64,000 bases of DNA from Bacteroidota bacterium (lineage in GTDB: Bacteria; Bacteroidota; Bacteroidia; Chitinophagales; Chitinophagaceae). The DNA is taken from positions 1-64,000 of the forward strand of contig JAUZNZ010000015.1 of the NCBI GenBank assembly GCA_030706735.1, in the 5' to 3' direction. The notes under the pieces were generated by a model. That model had not been told where the DNA came from. It did not search any database and saw nothing but the letters and a program-made list of their open reading frames with translations. The translations under genes and the position numbers were made by a program. How positions within the stretch are numbered: the stretch's first letter is position 1; each line of letters starts with the position of its first letter. Of the stretch, positions 53,150 to 56,937 are shown piece by piece.

Positions 53150-54100
53150 TCATGACAAGGCGGGCTGGTAGACGGGGAGTTCCTCCTCCGCTGCCGGTGA
53201 TGCCACCGGAGAAGCCGCGGGCTGCGCATGAAAGGCCTCGAGGCCTGCGTCCAGCCTTTGCTTCAGAAGGTCTGAAATTTCCACCAGGGGCAAGCGGGCC
53301 TCGGGCGATTGCAGGACCCCCGCCTTGTACAAACAATACTTTATCGGCGTCGGATTGGGCTCTTCGAACAACAAGGGAATGAACGCCGCCAGCTTTTTCC
53401 ATTTTTCCAGCGCGGCGCGATGGTCGTTGGCGCGTACCAGGCGATAGATATCGACAAAGAGCCCCGTGTGCAGGTTGGCCGACGCCAGGATCCCCCCATC
53501 TCCTCCATGCACCAGCGTGGTATAAAAAAGAATGTCCTCTCCCGTTAATATCGAGAAATCCTCGTGGGGTCGATTGAGCAGCAGTTGAAGCGTTTGGTCC
53601 AGGTTGCCGCTGCAATCCTTGATGCCGACGATATTCCGGCACTCCGACAACCGATGTATCGTCGCATTCTCCATATTCCTGCCCGTGCGGTAGGGGATAT
53701 TATACATGACGATATTCAGATCGGTGGCTTCCGAGATCCTGCGAAAGTGTTCCGTGATACCGCGTTGGTCCGGGCGGTTATAATACGGACTGACGGACAG
53801 GATGCCCTGGACGCGATATTTTTCGGCCATTTTCAATTGCTTCACCAGTTTGGTCGTATGGTTCCCGCCGAGGCCCACATAGACGGGCACCCGGCCTTCG
53901 TTGTATTCCATCGTCTTGTCCAGGATCGATTCGAATTCCTCCTCTGAAACGGTCGGACTTTCGCCGGTGGTACCCAGGGGGATCAGCCCGGAAATGGCTT
54001 TCGTGGTATAATGATCGATCAGCTCCCTGTAGGAGGCAAAATCGACCTCGTCGTTTCGGAATGGGGTGACCAACGGTATCCAAATGCCTTCGAGTCTCAT
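53150..54100 (-). CDS. dapA: 4-hydroxy-tetrahydrodipicolinate synthase
   Basis: A TIM-barrel aldolase of the DapA class: PLVTPF, the phosphate-type loop PLGTTGESPTV, the catalytic Tyr in YNIPYRTGRN, and the Schiff-base Lys in IVGIKDCSGN. It condenses pyruvate with aspartate semialdehyde, the first step of the lysine/diaminopimelate branch. A 25-residue Ala/Pro-rich tail at the C-terminus is added. It starts four bases after the asd stop, so it is translated with its substrate-making enzyme and falls under the asd leader. Confidence 0.94.
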   Translation of the reverse strand: MRLEGIWIPLVTPFRNDEVDFASYRELIDHYTTKAISGLIPLGTTGESPTVSEEEFESILDKTMEYNEGRVPVYVGLGGNHTTKLVKQLKMAEKYRVQGILSVSPYYNRPDQRGITEHFRRISEATDLNIVMYNIPYRTGRNMENATIHRLSECRNIVGIKDCSGNLDQTLQLLLNRPHEDFSILTGEDILFYTTLVHGGDGGILASANLHTGLFVDIYRLVRANDHRAALEKWKKLAAFIPLLFEEPNPTPIKYCLYKAGVLQSPEARLPLVEISDLLKQRLDAGLEAFHAQPAASPVASPAAEEELPVYQPALS

Positions 54101-54104
54101 ATTC

Positions 54105-55094
54105 TTATATCAGTTTATGTTTGTTCAGGTATTCAGCGATCTGCACCGCATTCGTGGCGGCGCCTTTCCGCAGGTTATCGCTGACGACCCACATGTTCAG
54201 CGTTCTGGGCTGCGTCTCATCCCTCCGCAACCTGCCGACAAAGACCTCGTCACGTTCATGCGCGTCCTTGGGCATCGGGTATTGCTGTGTGGCAGGATCA
54301 TCCACCACGACCACGCCGGGCGTTTTGCAGAGCAACGCTCTCACCTCTTCCAGATCAAATTCCTTTTCAAATTCGACATTCACCGATTCGCTATGGCCGC
54401 CGATGACCGGGATCCTCACGGTAGTTGCCGTCACCCGGATGGAATCGTCGCGCATGATCTTCCTGGTCTCATTGACCATTTTCATTTCCTCTTTGGTATA
54501 GCCATTATCGAGGAATACGTCGATCTGCGGGATCGCATTCATGTCGATAGGATACTTGTAGGCCATCTCGCCCTTCACGCCCTGCCGCTCGTTCATGAGC
54601 TGGGTAACCGCCTTGACGCCTGTGCCGGTCACGCTTTGGTAGGTCGAGACCACGATCCGCCGCACCTTATATTGCCTGTGCAGCGCATTCAGGGCCACCA
54701 CCATCTGGATCGTAGAGCAATTGGGATTGGCGATGATCTTGTCCTCCTTTCCAAGTACATCCGCATTCAACTCCGGCACGACCAGCTTCTTCGTCGGATC
54801 CATCCTCCATGCCGACGAGTTGTCGATAACGGTGACGCCTGCCGCCGCAAACTTCGGAGCCCACTCAAGGGAGGTGCTACCCCCAGCCGAGAACAGGGCA
54901 ATCGCCGGCCTGGCAGCGATCGCATCGGTAGCGCTGACCACCTTATATTTCTTGCCTTTAAACTCCACCTCCTTGCCGACGGACCGTTCCGATGCGACCG
55001 GAAACAACTCCGTTACGGGAAAATTCCTTTCTGCCAGTACCTGTAACATTTTAGTGCCTACGAGCCCGGTGGCGCCTACGACTGCAACTTTCAT
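54105..55094 (-). CDS. asd: Aspartate-semialdehyde dehydrogenase
   Basis: The N-terminal NADP site is VAVVGATGLVGTKML. The catalytic Cys is in ANPNCSTIQMV, and His in IGGHSESVNVEF; FSAGGSTS and the K-x-x-x-R loop are also present. It reduces aspartyl phosphate to aspartate semialdehyde, the branch metabolite for lysine, threonine and methionine. Followed by dapA, so here chiefly feeding lysine and cell-wall DAP. A short ORF and an intrinsic terminator (55131-55248) precede it on the same transcript, suggesting attenuation. Confidence 0.96.
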   Translation of the reverse strand: MKVAVVGATGLVGTKMLQVLAERNFPVTELFPVASERSVGKEVEFKGKKYKVVSATDAIAARPAIALFSAGGSTSLEWAPKFAAAGVTVIDNSSAWRMDPTKKLVVPELNADVLGKEDKIIANPNCSTIQMVVALNALHRQYKVRRIVVSTYQSVTGTGVKAVTQLMNERQGVKGEMAYKYPIDMNAIPQIDVFLDNGYTKEEMKMVNETRKIMRDDSIRVTATTVRIPVIGGHSESVNVEFEKEFDLEEVRALLCKTPGVVVVDDPATQQYPMPKDAHERDEVFVGRLRRDETQPRTLNMWVVSDNLRKGAATNAVQIAEYLNKHKLI

Positions 55095-55130
55095 TGTTGT
55101 GCTTTTTGAGATTTATCTGGTTAACGTTAA

Positions 55131-55158
55131 CAAAAAAGCCTCCCCGTTTGGGAAGGCT
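55131..55158 (-). terminator. Intrinsic terminator inside asd leader (attenuator)
   Basis: On the minus strand a 9-bp stem (AGCCTTCCC with GGGGAGGCT, one G-T pair) with loop AAAC is followed by six T. It lies between the short leader ORF and asd, 36 bases before the asd start, so read-through is needed for expression. Its 5' arm (GCCTTCC) can pair instead with GGAAGGT at the end of the leader ORF, which would prevent termination. Confidence 0.85.
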
Positions 55159-55182
55159 CTATTATCTTGGGATACAAAACAA

Positions 55183-55248
55183 TCAATCACCTTCCTCTTG
55201 CGGGGACTGCTTCTTGACTTGCTTCGTATTGAACATATTCATGGTCAT
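55183..55248 (-). CDS. Candidate asd-dapA leader peptide (21 aa)
   Basis: A 21-codon ORF, MTMNMFNTKQVKKQSPQEEG plus Asp, starts about eight bases after a consensus promoter and ends 24 bases before the terminator. It contains three Met, two Thr and three Lys, the end products reached through aspartate semialdehyde. Its last codons (GAG GAA GGT) form the segment that can pair with the terminator's 5' arm. A ribosome stalled at the Lys pair (codons 12-13) would leave this segment free; one that reaches the stop would cover it. Too short to judge by homology; supported by position and competing structures. Confidence 0.65.
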   Translation of the reverse strand: MTMNMFNTKQVKKQSPQEEGD

Positions 55249-55255
55249 TGCCGCA

Positions 55256-55285
55256 CAAAAATAAGTATAAAACAAAATATTCCAA
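55256..55285 (-). promoter_or_regulatory. Promoter of asd-dapA leader transcript
   Basis: On the minus strand TTG (55285-55283), a 19-base spacer and TATTTTTG (55263-55256) match the Bacteroidota consensus exactly. The predicted start is close to 55250, only a few bases before the short ORF. Confidence 0.75.
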
Positions 55286-55327
55286 ATTTATTTGCAAAAT
55301 AATGCCGCGGCAGCGGGCCTCCGCCAA

Positions 55328-56251
55328 TCAGCGCAGCTCGATATCGAAGTTCACCAGATCGACGAACTGCCGTATCCTTCCATCAATGTCCTCCTTGCTT
55401 ATCTCCTTCAGCCGCGTAGGGCCGAATTTCTCCACGCAGAAGGAGGCCATGGCTGATCCGACGATGATCGCCGTTTTCATATTTTCGAAGGAGACGTCCC
55501 GGGTATGCGCGATATAGCCGATGAACCCGCCGGCAAACGTATCTCCGGCCCCGGTCGGGTCGAATACGTCCTCCAGGGGAAGGGCGGGCGCCACGAAGAC
55601 CTTATCGCCATGAAAAAGCAGGGCGCCATGCTCCCCCTTCTTGATGATGACGTATTTCGGGCCCATTTTCTGGATGTCTTTCGCCGCCTTGACGAGGGAA
55701 TATTGACCGCTGAGCTGCCTGGCCTCGCTGTCATTTACCATGAGCACGTCGATCATCGTCAGCGCATGTCGCAGGTCATCCAGGGCCGTGTCCATCCAAA
55801 AGTTCATCGTGTCGAGGACGCTGAGCTTCGGCCGCTCTTTCAATTGCTTCATCACGCTGATCTGAAGGGCCGGAACCCCGTTCCCGAGCATCAGGAATTC
55901 GCTGCCCTGGTAGCTGTCCGGCAACACCGGATCGAAATCCGCCAGCACATTCAGGTCCGTCACGAGGGTATCGCGGGAATTCATGTCCATATGGTACTTA
56001 CCGCTCCAAAAGAACGACTTCTTGTCCGCCACCTTCTTCACGCCTTCCATGTTCACGCCGCGGCGCTCGAGGTCTGCCAGTTCTTCATCGGTGAAGTCAT
56101 ACCCCACGATGGATACCTGATTGATCGGCTGCACGAAATTGCTCGCCGCATAAGCGGCATAAACGGCCGCGCCTCCCACGATCCAATCGGTCTTCCCGAA
56201 GGGCGTTTCTATGGCGTCATGGGCCATCGAACCTACGATGATCAGTGACAT
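55328..56251 (-). CDS. PfkB-family carbohydrate kinase
   Basis: The ribokinase-fold signature is present: MSLIIVGSMAHDAIETPFG at the start, VGGAAVYAAYAA, and near the C-terminus FDPTGAGDTFAGGFIGYIA with the catalytic Asp and anion hole. The substrate may be a sugar or nucleoside; PfkB members with this N-terminus are often annotated as ribokinase or adenosine-kinase-like. ATG 56251 is preferred over the longer frame to 56281, which starts in a stretch without family similarity. It is divergent from the tetR gene. Confidence 0.86.
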   Translation of the reverse strand: MSLIIVGSMAHDAIETPFGKTDWIVGGAAVYAAYAASNFVQPINQVSIVGYDFTDEELADLERRGVNMEGVKKVADKKSFFWSGKYHMDMNSRDTLVTDLNVLADFDPVLPDSYQGSEFLMLGNGVPALQISVMKQLKERPKLSVLDTMNFWMDTALDDLRHALTMIDVLMVNDSEARQLSGQYSLVKAAKDIQKMGPKYVIIKKGEHGALLFHGDKVFVAPALPLEDVFDPTGAGDTFAGGFIGYIAHTRDVSFENMKTAIIVGSAMASFCVEKFGPTRLKEISKEDIDGRIRQFVDLVNFDIELR

Positions 56252-56307
56252 AGCGTGTTTTTTTGTGACAAAACCGTGCAAACCTACACGAAATTTTTCA
56301 TTAAGCG

Positions 56308-56338
56308 AACTAACACCCGTTAGTTTGAATTATCTTTG
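56308..56338 (+). promoter_or_regulatory. tetR operator and promoter
   Basis: A perfect palindrome with arms AACTAAC and GTTAGTT around ACCC (56308-56325) lies five bases before a TATCTTTG minus-7 box (56331-56338) and nine bases before the tetR ATG thereafter. It overlaps the minus-33 region, so binding would repress. The same 16-base core stands before paaA (60393-60408). Confidence 0.78.
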
Positions 56339-56346
56339 TTTCCCGT

Positions 56347-56937
56347 ATGGCAAAGATCCAAAGCAGGAAGAACAGCACCAAGAAAGAAGTGATCATCGAG
56401 AAGGCCTCCAGGCTTTTCCGTGAGAAGGGCTTCGGGGCTGCCTCCATGCGCGACCTGGCCGAACATGTAGGCGTGGAGGCCGCCAGCCTCTATAATCACA
56501 TTCAATCCAAGTCGGAGATCCTTCAGACCATTTGCTTCAAGGTGGCGAATGAGTTCATGTCGAACCTCGAAGCGGTCGAGTCCAGCAACCAGTCGACGCT
56601 GAAGAAAATGGAGGCGATCATCCGCCTGCACATCCGCATGATGCTGGACCAATATGAATTTGTATTCATCGCCGACCATGAATGGCGCCACCTGCCCGAA
56701 CCCTACCTGTCGAATTTCCTGAACCAGCGCAGGAGCTATCGCAAACGTCTCGGCGATATCGTCGAGGAGGGTATCGCGAAGGGCGAGATGAAGCCGATCG
56801 ATCCGTATGTGGCGGTGCTGACCATCCTTTCGGCCGTCAGCGGCATTGATTCCTGGCAGCGCTCGCGAAAGAGCACAAGCGCCGAAACGTTGGAGGCGAA
56901 TATGGTCAGGTACCTGATCGAGGGACTGAAAAAATAG
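56347..56937 (+). CDS. TetR-family regulator of phenylacetate genes (PaaR-like)
   Basis: The N-terminal HTH is clear: VIIEKASRLFREKGFGAASM, LAEHVGVEAASLYNHI with the recognition helix near residues 38-48. The C-terminal ligand domain (60-196) is helical and has no recognisable signature. In Bacteroidota and other groups, TetR-type PaaR repressors of the paa genes respond to phenylacetyl-CoA; that role is inferred here from location before paaE and from the shared palindrome upstream of this gene and of paaA. Likely autoregulated. Confidence 0.86.
   Translation: MAKIQSRKNSTKKEVIIEKASRLFREKGFGAASMRDLAEHVGVEAASLYNHIQSKSEILQTICFKVANEFMSNLEAVESSNQSTLKKMEAIIRLHIRMMLDQYEFVFIADHEWRHLPEPYLSNFLNQRRSYRKRLGDIVEEGIAKGEMKPIDPYVAVLTILSAVSGIDSWQRSRKSTSAETLEANMVRYLIEGLKK

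Follow-up and report, generated by a model that had tools for sequence, protein, structure and literature searches.

The asd and dapA genes of the window, i.e. the whole 64,000-nucleotide stretch of Bacteroidota DNA analysed here, are preceded by a short leader that is very probably a ribosome-mediated transcription attenuator of the his/trp/thr type, with its action in the cell predicted from comparison of relatives and from RNA folding. The element sits on the minus strand between a sugar-kinase-like gene and asd and is composed as follows.

56281-55328: sugar-kinase-like gene, on the other side of the leader from asd (weak NCBIfam kinase matches, none above cut-off)
55256-55286, minus strand: promoter-like pair, TTTG (55286-55283), a 19-nt spacer and TATTTTTG (55263-55256), read from the sequence
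55183-55248, minus strand: leader ORF MTMNMFNTKQVKKQSPQEEGD with stop codon TGA at 55185-55183, read from the sequence; such an ORF is present in 100 of 100 chosen copies
55219-55229, minus strand: region 1, within the ORF, partner of region 3 (leader fold; covarying helix)
55210-55215, minus strand: Lys-Lys codons 12-13 (AAG AAG), near the last stall codons predicted by footprint folding to leave region 2 free
55201-55206, minus strand: region 2a, TCCCCG (codons 15-16), a potential pairing partner of CGGGGA in the terminator 3′ arm (sequence, fold)
55189-55195, minus strand: region 2, GGAAGGT, the antiterminator arm, which pairs with GCCTTCC of the terminator 5′ arm (fold, arm swapping)
55172-55182, minus strand: region 3, partner of region 1 (leader fold)
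55150-55160, minus strand: region 4, the terminator 5′ arm AGAGCCTTCCC (terminator scan, sequence)
55132-55145, minus strand: region 5, the terminator 3′ arm GGGGAGGC with six T (terminator scan, sequence)
54105-55094, minus strand: asd, aspartate-semialdehyde dehydrogenase (NCBIfam TIGR01296 asd_B above cut-off, equivalog)
53150-54100, minus strand: dapA, 4-hydroxy-tetrahydrodipicolinate synthase, 4 nt 3′ of asd (NCBIfam TIGR00674 above cut-off, equivalog)

An earlier reading made from the sequence alone (hereafter the sequence-only reading) had described a consensus promoter, a 21-codon ORF and a terminator before asd. The TTTG-N19-TATTTTTG pair (55286-55256) is present and fits the Bacteroidota promoter consensus; the pair was not in the output of a sigma-70 scan of the window. 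Its downstream box ends 7 nt 5′ of the leader ATG, and the RNA would start at this ATG or a few nucleotides before it. The ORF at 55248-55183 has 21 codons followed by TGA, with three Met (start included), two Thr and three Lys as had been read. The terminator and its six T were likewise borne out, with a stem AGAGCCTTCCC/GGGGAGGCTTT for which the terminator scan gives 11 pairs instead of the nine proposed. Between terminator and asd, at 55121-55132, lies a perfect 12-bp palindrome GTTAACGTTAAC, possibly an operator or a product of chance.

Relatives were collected by an asd search in which the best 80 of at least 589 loci were retained, Chitinophagaceae, Flavihumibacter and Niastella among them; these names put the window in Bacteroidota. 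Upstream regions of 35 of the 80 were read, 13 further regions were read later and a hairpin scan was run on the upstream regions of all 80. The element was found in 23 of these best 80 of at least 589 loci. The 23 loci and the window were aligned without structure (24 rows), and a covariance model was then built. No convincing match to this model was obtained in the remaining 57 of the best 80 of at least 589 loci: the best match among them (32.8 bits) lay on the opposite strand, far from asd, and the one match adjoining asd (L075, 23.6 bits) fell at the terminator of the upstream gene.

The model matched 31 of the 33 genomes of the genus, including 18 of 18 of good quality. Within the family, 264 of 394 sampled genomes matched at E ≤ 1e-3, in 81 of 101 genera, with a best E above 1e-6 in 37 of the 264; the other 130 of the 394 gave no match. 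Outside the family, matches at E ≤ 1e-3 (109 of 298 in the order, 112 of 395 in the class) exceed the true spread, because weak matches (about 33-52 bits) are often something other than such leaders. The weak matches L130, L132, L133, L136, L204, L225, L227 and L228 were rejected as leaders of the asd/dapA kind, and L240 and L241 were discarded since, by eye, they follow the end of a small-ribosomal-protein-like gene. In a sample of the phylum, 12 of 296 genomes matched at 1e-5, all 12 inside the class; two of these matches were false, one lay before thrA and one before a trpE-like gene.

Genes behind the element were tallied in two sets. Among 59 fetched matches, a non-random choice of second hits or spread-out best hits, 46 lay before asd, five before dapA, three before hisG, one at a contig end and four, all weak, elsewhere. 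Among 40 more, which were second hits in the family or top hits outside it, 21 lay before asd, nine before dapA, four before hisG and six before neither; of these six, one preceded thrA (NCBIfam above cut-off) and another a trpE-like gene, whose top NCBIfam match, to anthranilate synthase component I, stayed below cut-off. The 15 asd leaders found outside the family (L209-L220, L222-L224; two identical) came from four further families of its class; they were diverged and mostly Lys/Met-rich, e.g. MMIKKIKCAKKLFR. A chosen set of 100 copies was then aligned (A2; 96 rows distinct, near-copies remaining). Left out of A2 were the hisG leaders L131, L134 and L135, the contig-end match L140, the non-leaders L130, L132, L133 and L136, and twelve duplicates or part-duplicates. 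In this chosen set the next gene, on the same strand, is asd in 95 copies and dapA in 5.

The sequence-only reading had named a conserved short ORF and conserved alternative helices in relatives as the checks to be made. All 100 chosen copies carry an in-frame ATG opening an ORF of 14-23 amino acids, with a core [M/I/K]-K-H-T-K-x-T-K-K. Lys is the best-conserved residue; among 95 distinct ORFs, the two positions of the last Lys pair are occupied by Lys 78 and 88 times, respectively, with both AAA and AAG in use. The codon just before this pair (+4) is Thr in 45 of the 95, written with four different codons, and Ile in 22. Entropy at codon positions 1, 2 and 3 was 0.51, 0.88 and 1.15 bits, a gradient from which the ORF appears to be translated. 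Met, Ile, Thr and Lys together accounted for a fraction of 0.69 of codons 2-13; base-shuffled ORFs gave 0.38, and the two alternative frames gave 0.20 and 0.29. Met and Thr exceeded the base-shuffled expectation (z of 20 and 11, values which overstate independence as the 95 ORFs are related), and Asn, whose codons are equally A-rich, fell below it. The promoter pair TTTG-N17-21-TAnnTTYG was found in 76 of 96 distinct upstream regions (mean of 0.25 in shuffles), with its -7 box mostly 6-9 nt 5′ of the leader ATG; the ORF therefore probably begins almost at the 5′ end of the RNA. As in systems of the his/trp/thr type, a short ORF thus lies between promoter and gene, and an intrinsic terminator precedes the structural gene.

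Folding of the whole window leader gave a structure better than all of 200 shuffles (z = -4.4), consisting of a helix 55229-55219 : 55182-55172 (helix 1:3) followed by the terminator. With folding confined to the stretch between codon 14 and the last base of the 3′ arm, the antiterminator was the minimum free energy structure (z = -4.6, equalled by 0 of 200 shuffles); in it, TCCCCG:CGGGGA encloses GGAAGGT:GCCTTCC. The two computed folds therefore compete for the same arms. The pairing of GGAAGGT (55195-55189) with GCCTTCC and that of TCCCCG (55206-55201) with CGGGGA had been pointed out in the sequence-only reading and were recovered here; helix 1:3, which reads CATACAAA/TTTGTATG in relatives, was absent from it.

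In the 24-row alignment, helices 1:3 and 4:5 formed in 86% of cells, compared with 79% in shuffles, and two-sided changes were seen at 14 of 16 pairs (shuffle mean 6.5; 0 of 500 shuffles reached 14). Five measures of covariation were applied to these two helices; on four of them 0 of 500 shuffles equalled the real value, and on the fifth 1 of 500 did. RNAalifold predicted the terminator alone on the plain 24-row alignment, and helix 1:3 was for this reason identified manually from the pairing of alignment columns. For helix 2:4, a count of paired columns in the plain alignment yielded no signal, 253 of 500 shuffles being paired equally well, probably owing to a nearly constant arm and to register shifts. 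The mutually exclusive antiterminator helix of his/trp/thr-type systems was found through pairing energies of own and swapped arms. Own arms outpaired swapped arms for 1:3, 2:4 and 4:5 in 53 and in 25 non-redundant copies (0 of 500 permutations), and upon thinning to 12 very divergent copies 1, 24 and 0 of 500 permutations matched, respectively. The alternative pairing is thus conserved in relatives. In one copy (L018:2831-2952) another set of arms, GGGGC (region 2), GCCCC (region 4) and GGGGC (region 5), replaces GGAAGG/CCTTCC, and helix 2:4 comprises five pairs.

The effect of ribosome position was computed by blocking a 30-nt footprint at a given codon and taking the probability of upstream pairing by region 4 at a stage when region 5 has yet to be transcribed. 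Averaged over the 100 copies, a ribosome placed at Lys-Lys gave a probability of 0.92, one placed at the stop codon 0.28, and ribosome-free RNA 0.75; the corresponding values for the window were 0.94, 0.30 and 0.44. Following shuffling of the segment between footprint and region 4, it was 0.55 at Lys-Lys and 0.45 at the stop, so that the difference between the two positions is 0.64 for real and 0.10 for shuffled copies. The real difference exceeded the mean of the copy's own ten shuffles in 98 of 100 copies and all ten in 68. In a codon-by-codon scan of the 28 short ORFs (stop at +9 in 27), the probability had fallen to about half at the first codon past Lys-Lys; in the 72 long ORFs this happened at the second codon past it. 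In both groups the value was low at the next codon, which places the drop one to three codons behind the Lys pair. In the computation, then, a stalled ribosome frees the antiterminator arm and one that completes the ORF covers it, as in the his/trp/thr type.

The sequence-only reading had held that a ribosome stalled at the Lys-Lys codons would free GGAAGGT and that one at the stop codon would cover it, and the footprint folding agrees. Along the leader ORF of the window, a ribosome stalled anywhere in the stretch N M F N T K Q V K K Q (codons 4-14) gave 0.87-0.94, but stalls at codons 2-3 (Thr, Met) gave 0.16-0.17, which means no predicted read-through. For free RNA the model is ambiguous: helix 1:3 had a mean probability of 0.79 and region 4 paired upstream with 0.75, so that this helix would not clearly enforce termination when the leader goes untranslated. 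At full length the equilibrium fold favoured the terminator in every state (mean 0.80-0.89; window 0.97-1.00); the choice must therefore be kinetic, made during growth of the RNA.

The proposed course of events is as follows. Transcription would begin at or just 5′ of the leader ATG, and a ribosome would trail RNA polymerase through the 21-codon ORF with its Lys, Thr and Met codons. When the charged tRNA is short, the ribosome would stall somewhere from about codon 4 to Lys-Lys, covering region 1 and leaving region 2 free; GGAAGGT could then pair with the newly made region 4, no terminator would form and asd-dapA would be transcribed. A ribosome that reaches the stop codon would cover region 2, upon which regions 4 and 5 would form the terminator and transcription would end.

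The hairpin might instead merely terminate an upstream transcript, of a small gene or RNA, with asd starting by itself downstream. Such an arrangement is what flavobacterial asd loci suggest by eye (e.g. L072), where the hairpin comes after the end of the upstream gene and a TAnnTTTG-like box lies behind it. In the window, however, just 37 nt separate the T run from asd, without such a box, and all 100 chosen copies precede asd or dapA on the same strand. Also against an upstream terminator, the ORF codons track the downstream gene, with Lys for dapA and His for hisG, and the antiterminator arms fit each other better than swapped arms. We accept an upstream-gene terminator in the flavobacterial asd loci; for the window we rejected it as very improbable. 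In the flavobacterial loci L067, L069, L072, L075, L077 and L079 the hairpin before asd follows, by eye, the end of the upstream gene, and a promoter-like box behind it is visible in some; a leader ORF was looked for by eye in these six and none was seen.

Direct binding of lysine or some other metabolite by a riboswitch, in which the ORF would have no role, would equally place a conserved folded leader in front of a lysine gene. Against this, no Rfam lysine riboswitch or T-box was found up to E 5 in window positions 54000-56500, the conserved core is a reading frame with synonymous variation, no conserved non-coding pocket was seen by eye in the 24-row alignment, and leaders of hisG, trpE-like and thrA genes share the layout with other codons. 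We rejected the riboswitch as extremely improbable. At the gathering cut-off no Rfam family was found in the window stretch or in 20 loci; Phe_leader (RF01859) scored 26.1 bits in the window (gathering cut-off 55, E 0.17), i.e. below cut-off. The L box (lysine riboswitch) has no reading frame; the asd leader differs from it in having one and in giving no match to the Rfam lysine riboswitch. RNA-level control of lysine genes is what the attenuator proposed here would have in common with the L box (PMC1262725, in the portion available).

The sensed amino acid was approached by comparing leaders of the two genes. dapA serves the lysine branch only and asd serves all branches. Fourteen dapA leaders were compared with 10 asd leaders from ten of the same fourteen genomes, four genera only. 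In codons 2-13, Lys was equal (0.36 in dapA and 0.38 in asd leaders, respectively), Met was 0.006 against 0.125 and Thr 0.095 against 0.183, and Ile went the reverse way, 0.095 against 0.025. Thr stands at codon +4 in 10 of 10 compared asd leaders and in 0 of 14 dapA leaders; the asd leader of the window has Val there, like most dapA leaders. Because dapA belongs to the lysine branch only and asd to all branches, the Met and Thr shifts fit a retuned sensing; the Ile shift does not, and speaks against Ile as a signal for asd. In this enrichment of Lys, Thr and Met and in its gene-specific shifts, the leaders carry regulatory codons of pathway products, as leaders of the his/trp/thr type do.

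His/trp-type attenuation for aspartate-family amino acids was the proposal of the sequence-only reading, and the comparative tests support it; as to the signal, we infer from the codons that it is lysine, with threonine and methionine. That one leader integrates shortage of lysine, threonine and methionine for Asd, and that the copy before a separate dapA was retuned to lysine alone, stands at about an even chance. An attenuator that senses lysine alone, with the Thr, Met and Ile codons serving RNA pairing or base composition, is a tenable reading of somewhat less than even probability. It agrees with Lys being best conserved and standing as Lys-Lys at the switch point, with a Thr at codon +1 that lies within helix 1:3 and is retained in most dapA leaders, with Ile being kept in dapA leaders, and with Val in the window leader where other asd leaders have Thr; moreover, A-rich starts yield K, N, T, I and M by chance. 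It is opposed by Met and Thr lying above the base-shuffled expectation and Asn below it, by Thr at +4 in the compared asd leaders and none of the dapA leaders, and by the fall of Met from asd to dapA leaders, the latter two within four genera only.

Among enterobacterial leaders, hisL, trpL and thrL share with the asd leader a short ORF with codons for the product amino acid and a choice between antiterminator and terminator set by ribosome position. The asd leader would differ from these in its genes (asd/dapA), its signal (Lys with Thr/Met), its phylum, its near-leaderless start with a promoter of Bacteroidota type, and the position of helix 1:3, which closes 3′ of the stop codon. asd of Escherichia coli, the same gene as that of the window, is controlled by lysine, threonine and methionine; it was reportedly the subject of work by Haziza, Stragier and Patte in 1982.

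A literature search, in which subscription journals were thinly covered, yielded no title that refers to leader peptides in connection with asd, dapA or lysine. The nearest published idea found concerns SEP5 of Sinorhizobium meliloti: this sORF is translated, contains six Thr and three Lys codons and lies in the 5′-UTR of an 'aspartate dehydrogenase' gene, and its authors suggest it as a possible leader peptide (PMC10117765, available part). Unlike the asd leader, SEP5 belongs to another phylum and is said to be conserved in Sinorhizobium only, and a terminator or alternative structures are not given in the available text (PMC10117765). In Flavobacterium psychrophilum, of the same phylum as the window, strong clues were reported for leader-peptide attenuation before amino-acid operons, and hisG and pheA are named there among the conserved 5′ elements that lack an Rfam match; 'asd' is absent from the main text as available (PMC9723704). 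5′-UTR sORFs reminiscent of leader peptides were also described for Bacteroides thetaiotaomicron (PMC7366714, available part). Going by what could be seen of these two reports, attenuation in the phylum is therefore not new as such, and little of it is annotated there, as far as could be seen. In the available portion of a 2005 study, lysine is placed under the L box and threonine, histidine and phenylalanine under attenuators (PMC1262725), and RNA-level lysine control is usually ascribed to the L-box riboswitch (PMC1262725).

If the interpretation is correct, leader-peptide attenuation would govern the lysine/threonine/methionine/isoleucine branch point across much of one Bacteroidota family, and also in no fewer than four further families of the class. 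A leader that integrates shortage of several of these amino acids would provide a leader-peptide attenuator for lysine and a molecular form of multivalent asd control in Bacteroidota. The asd/dapA pair would then be a natural experiment in the retuning of regulatory codons once a leader has come to serve another gene.

Parallel leaders were found before other amino-acid genes. The seven hisG leaders have four or five His codons each; leaders of trpE-like genes in other genomes of the class or family contain Trp-Trp (L205) or Trp-Trp-Trp (L242; by eye), and a thrA leader in another genome (L236, G669) reads STIIITIIITT by eye. Taken with the Lys leaders, these parallel leaders with His, Trp and Thr/Ile codons point to attenuation as a general control of amino-acid genes in the phylum.

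Two further loci in the window's own genome were noted by eye. At L231, a His-rich leader MNSQRQHHHQHFFLPQG (HHHQH) and a terminator-like hairpin lie directly before hisG, a layout which resembles that of the asd leader. At L235, a frame ending in TTTITTGTTR-stop precedes a bifunctional aspartate kinase/homoserine dehydrogenase gene, whose identity was scored on part of the gene only; the end of this frame overlaps a hairpin followed by T, and it is a likely Thr/Ile leader.
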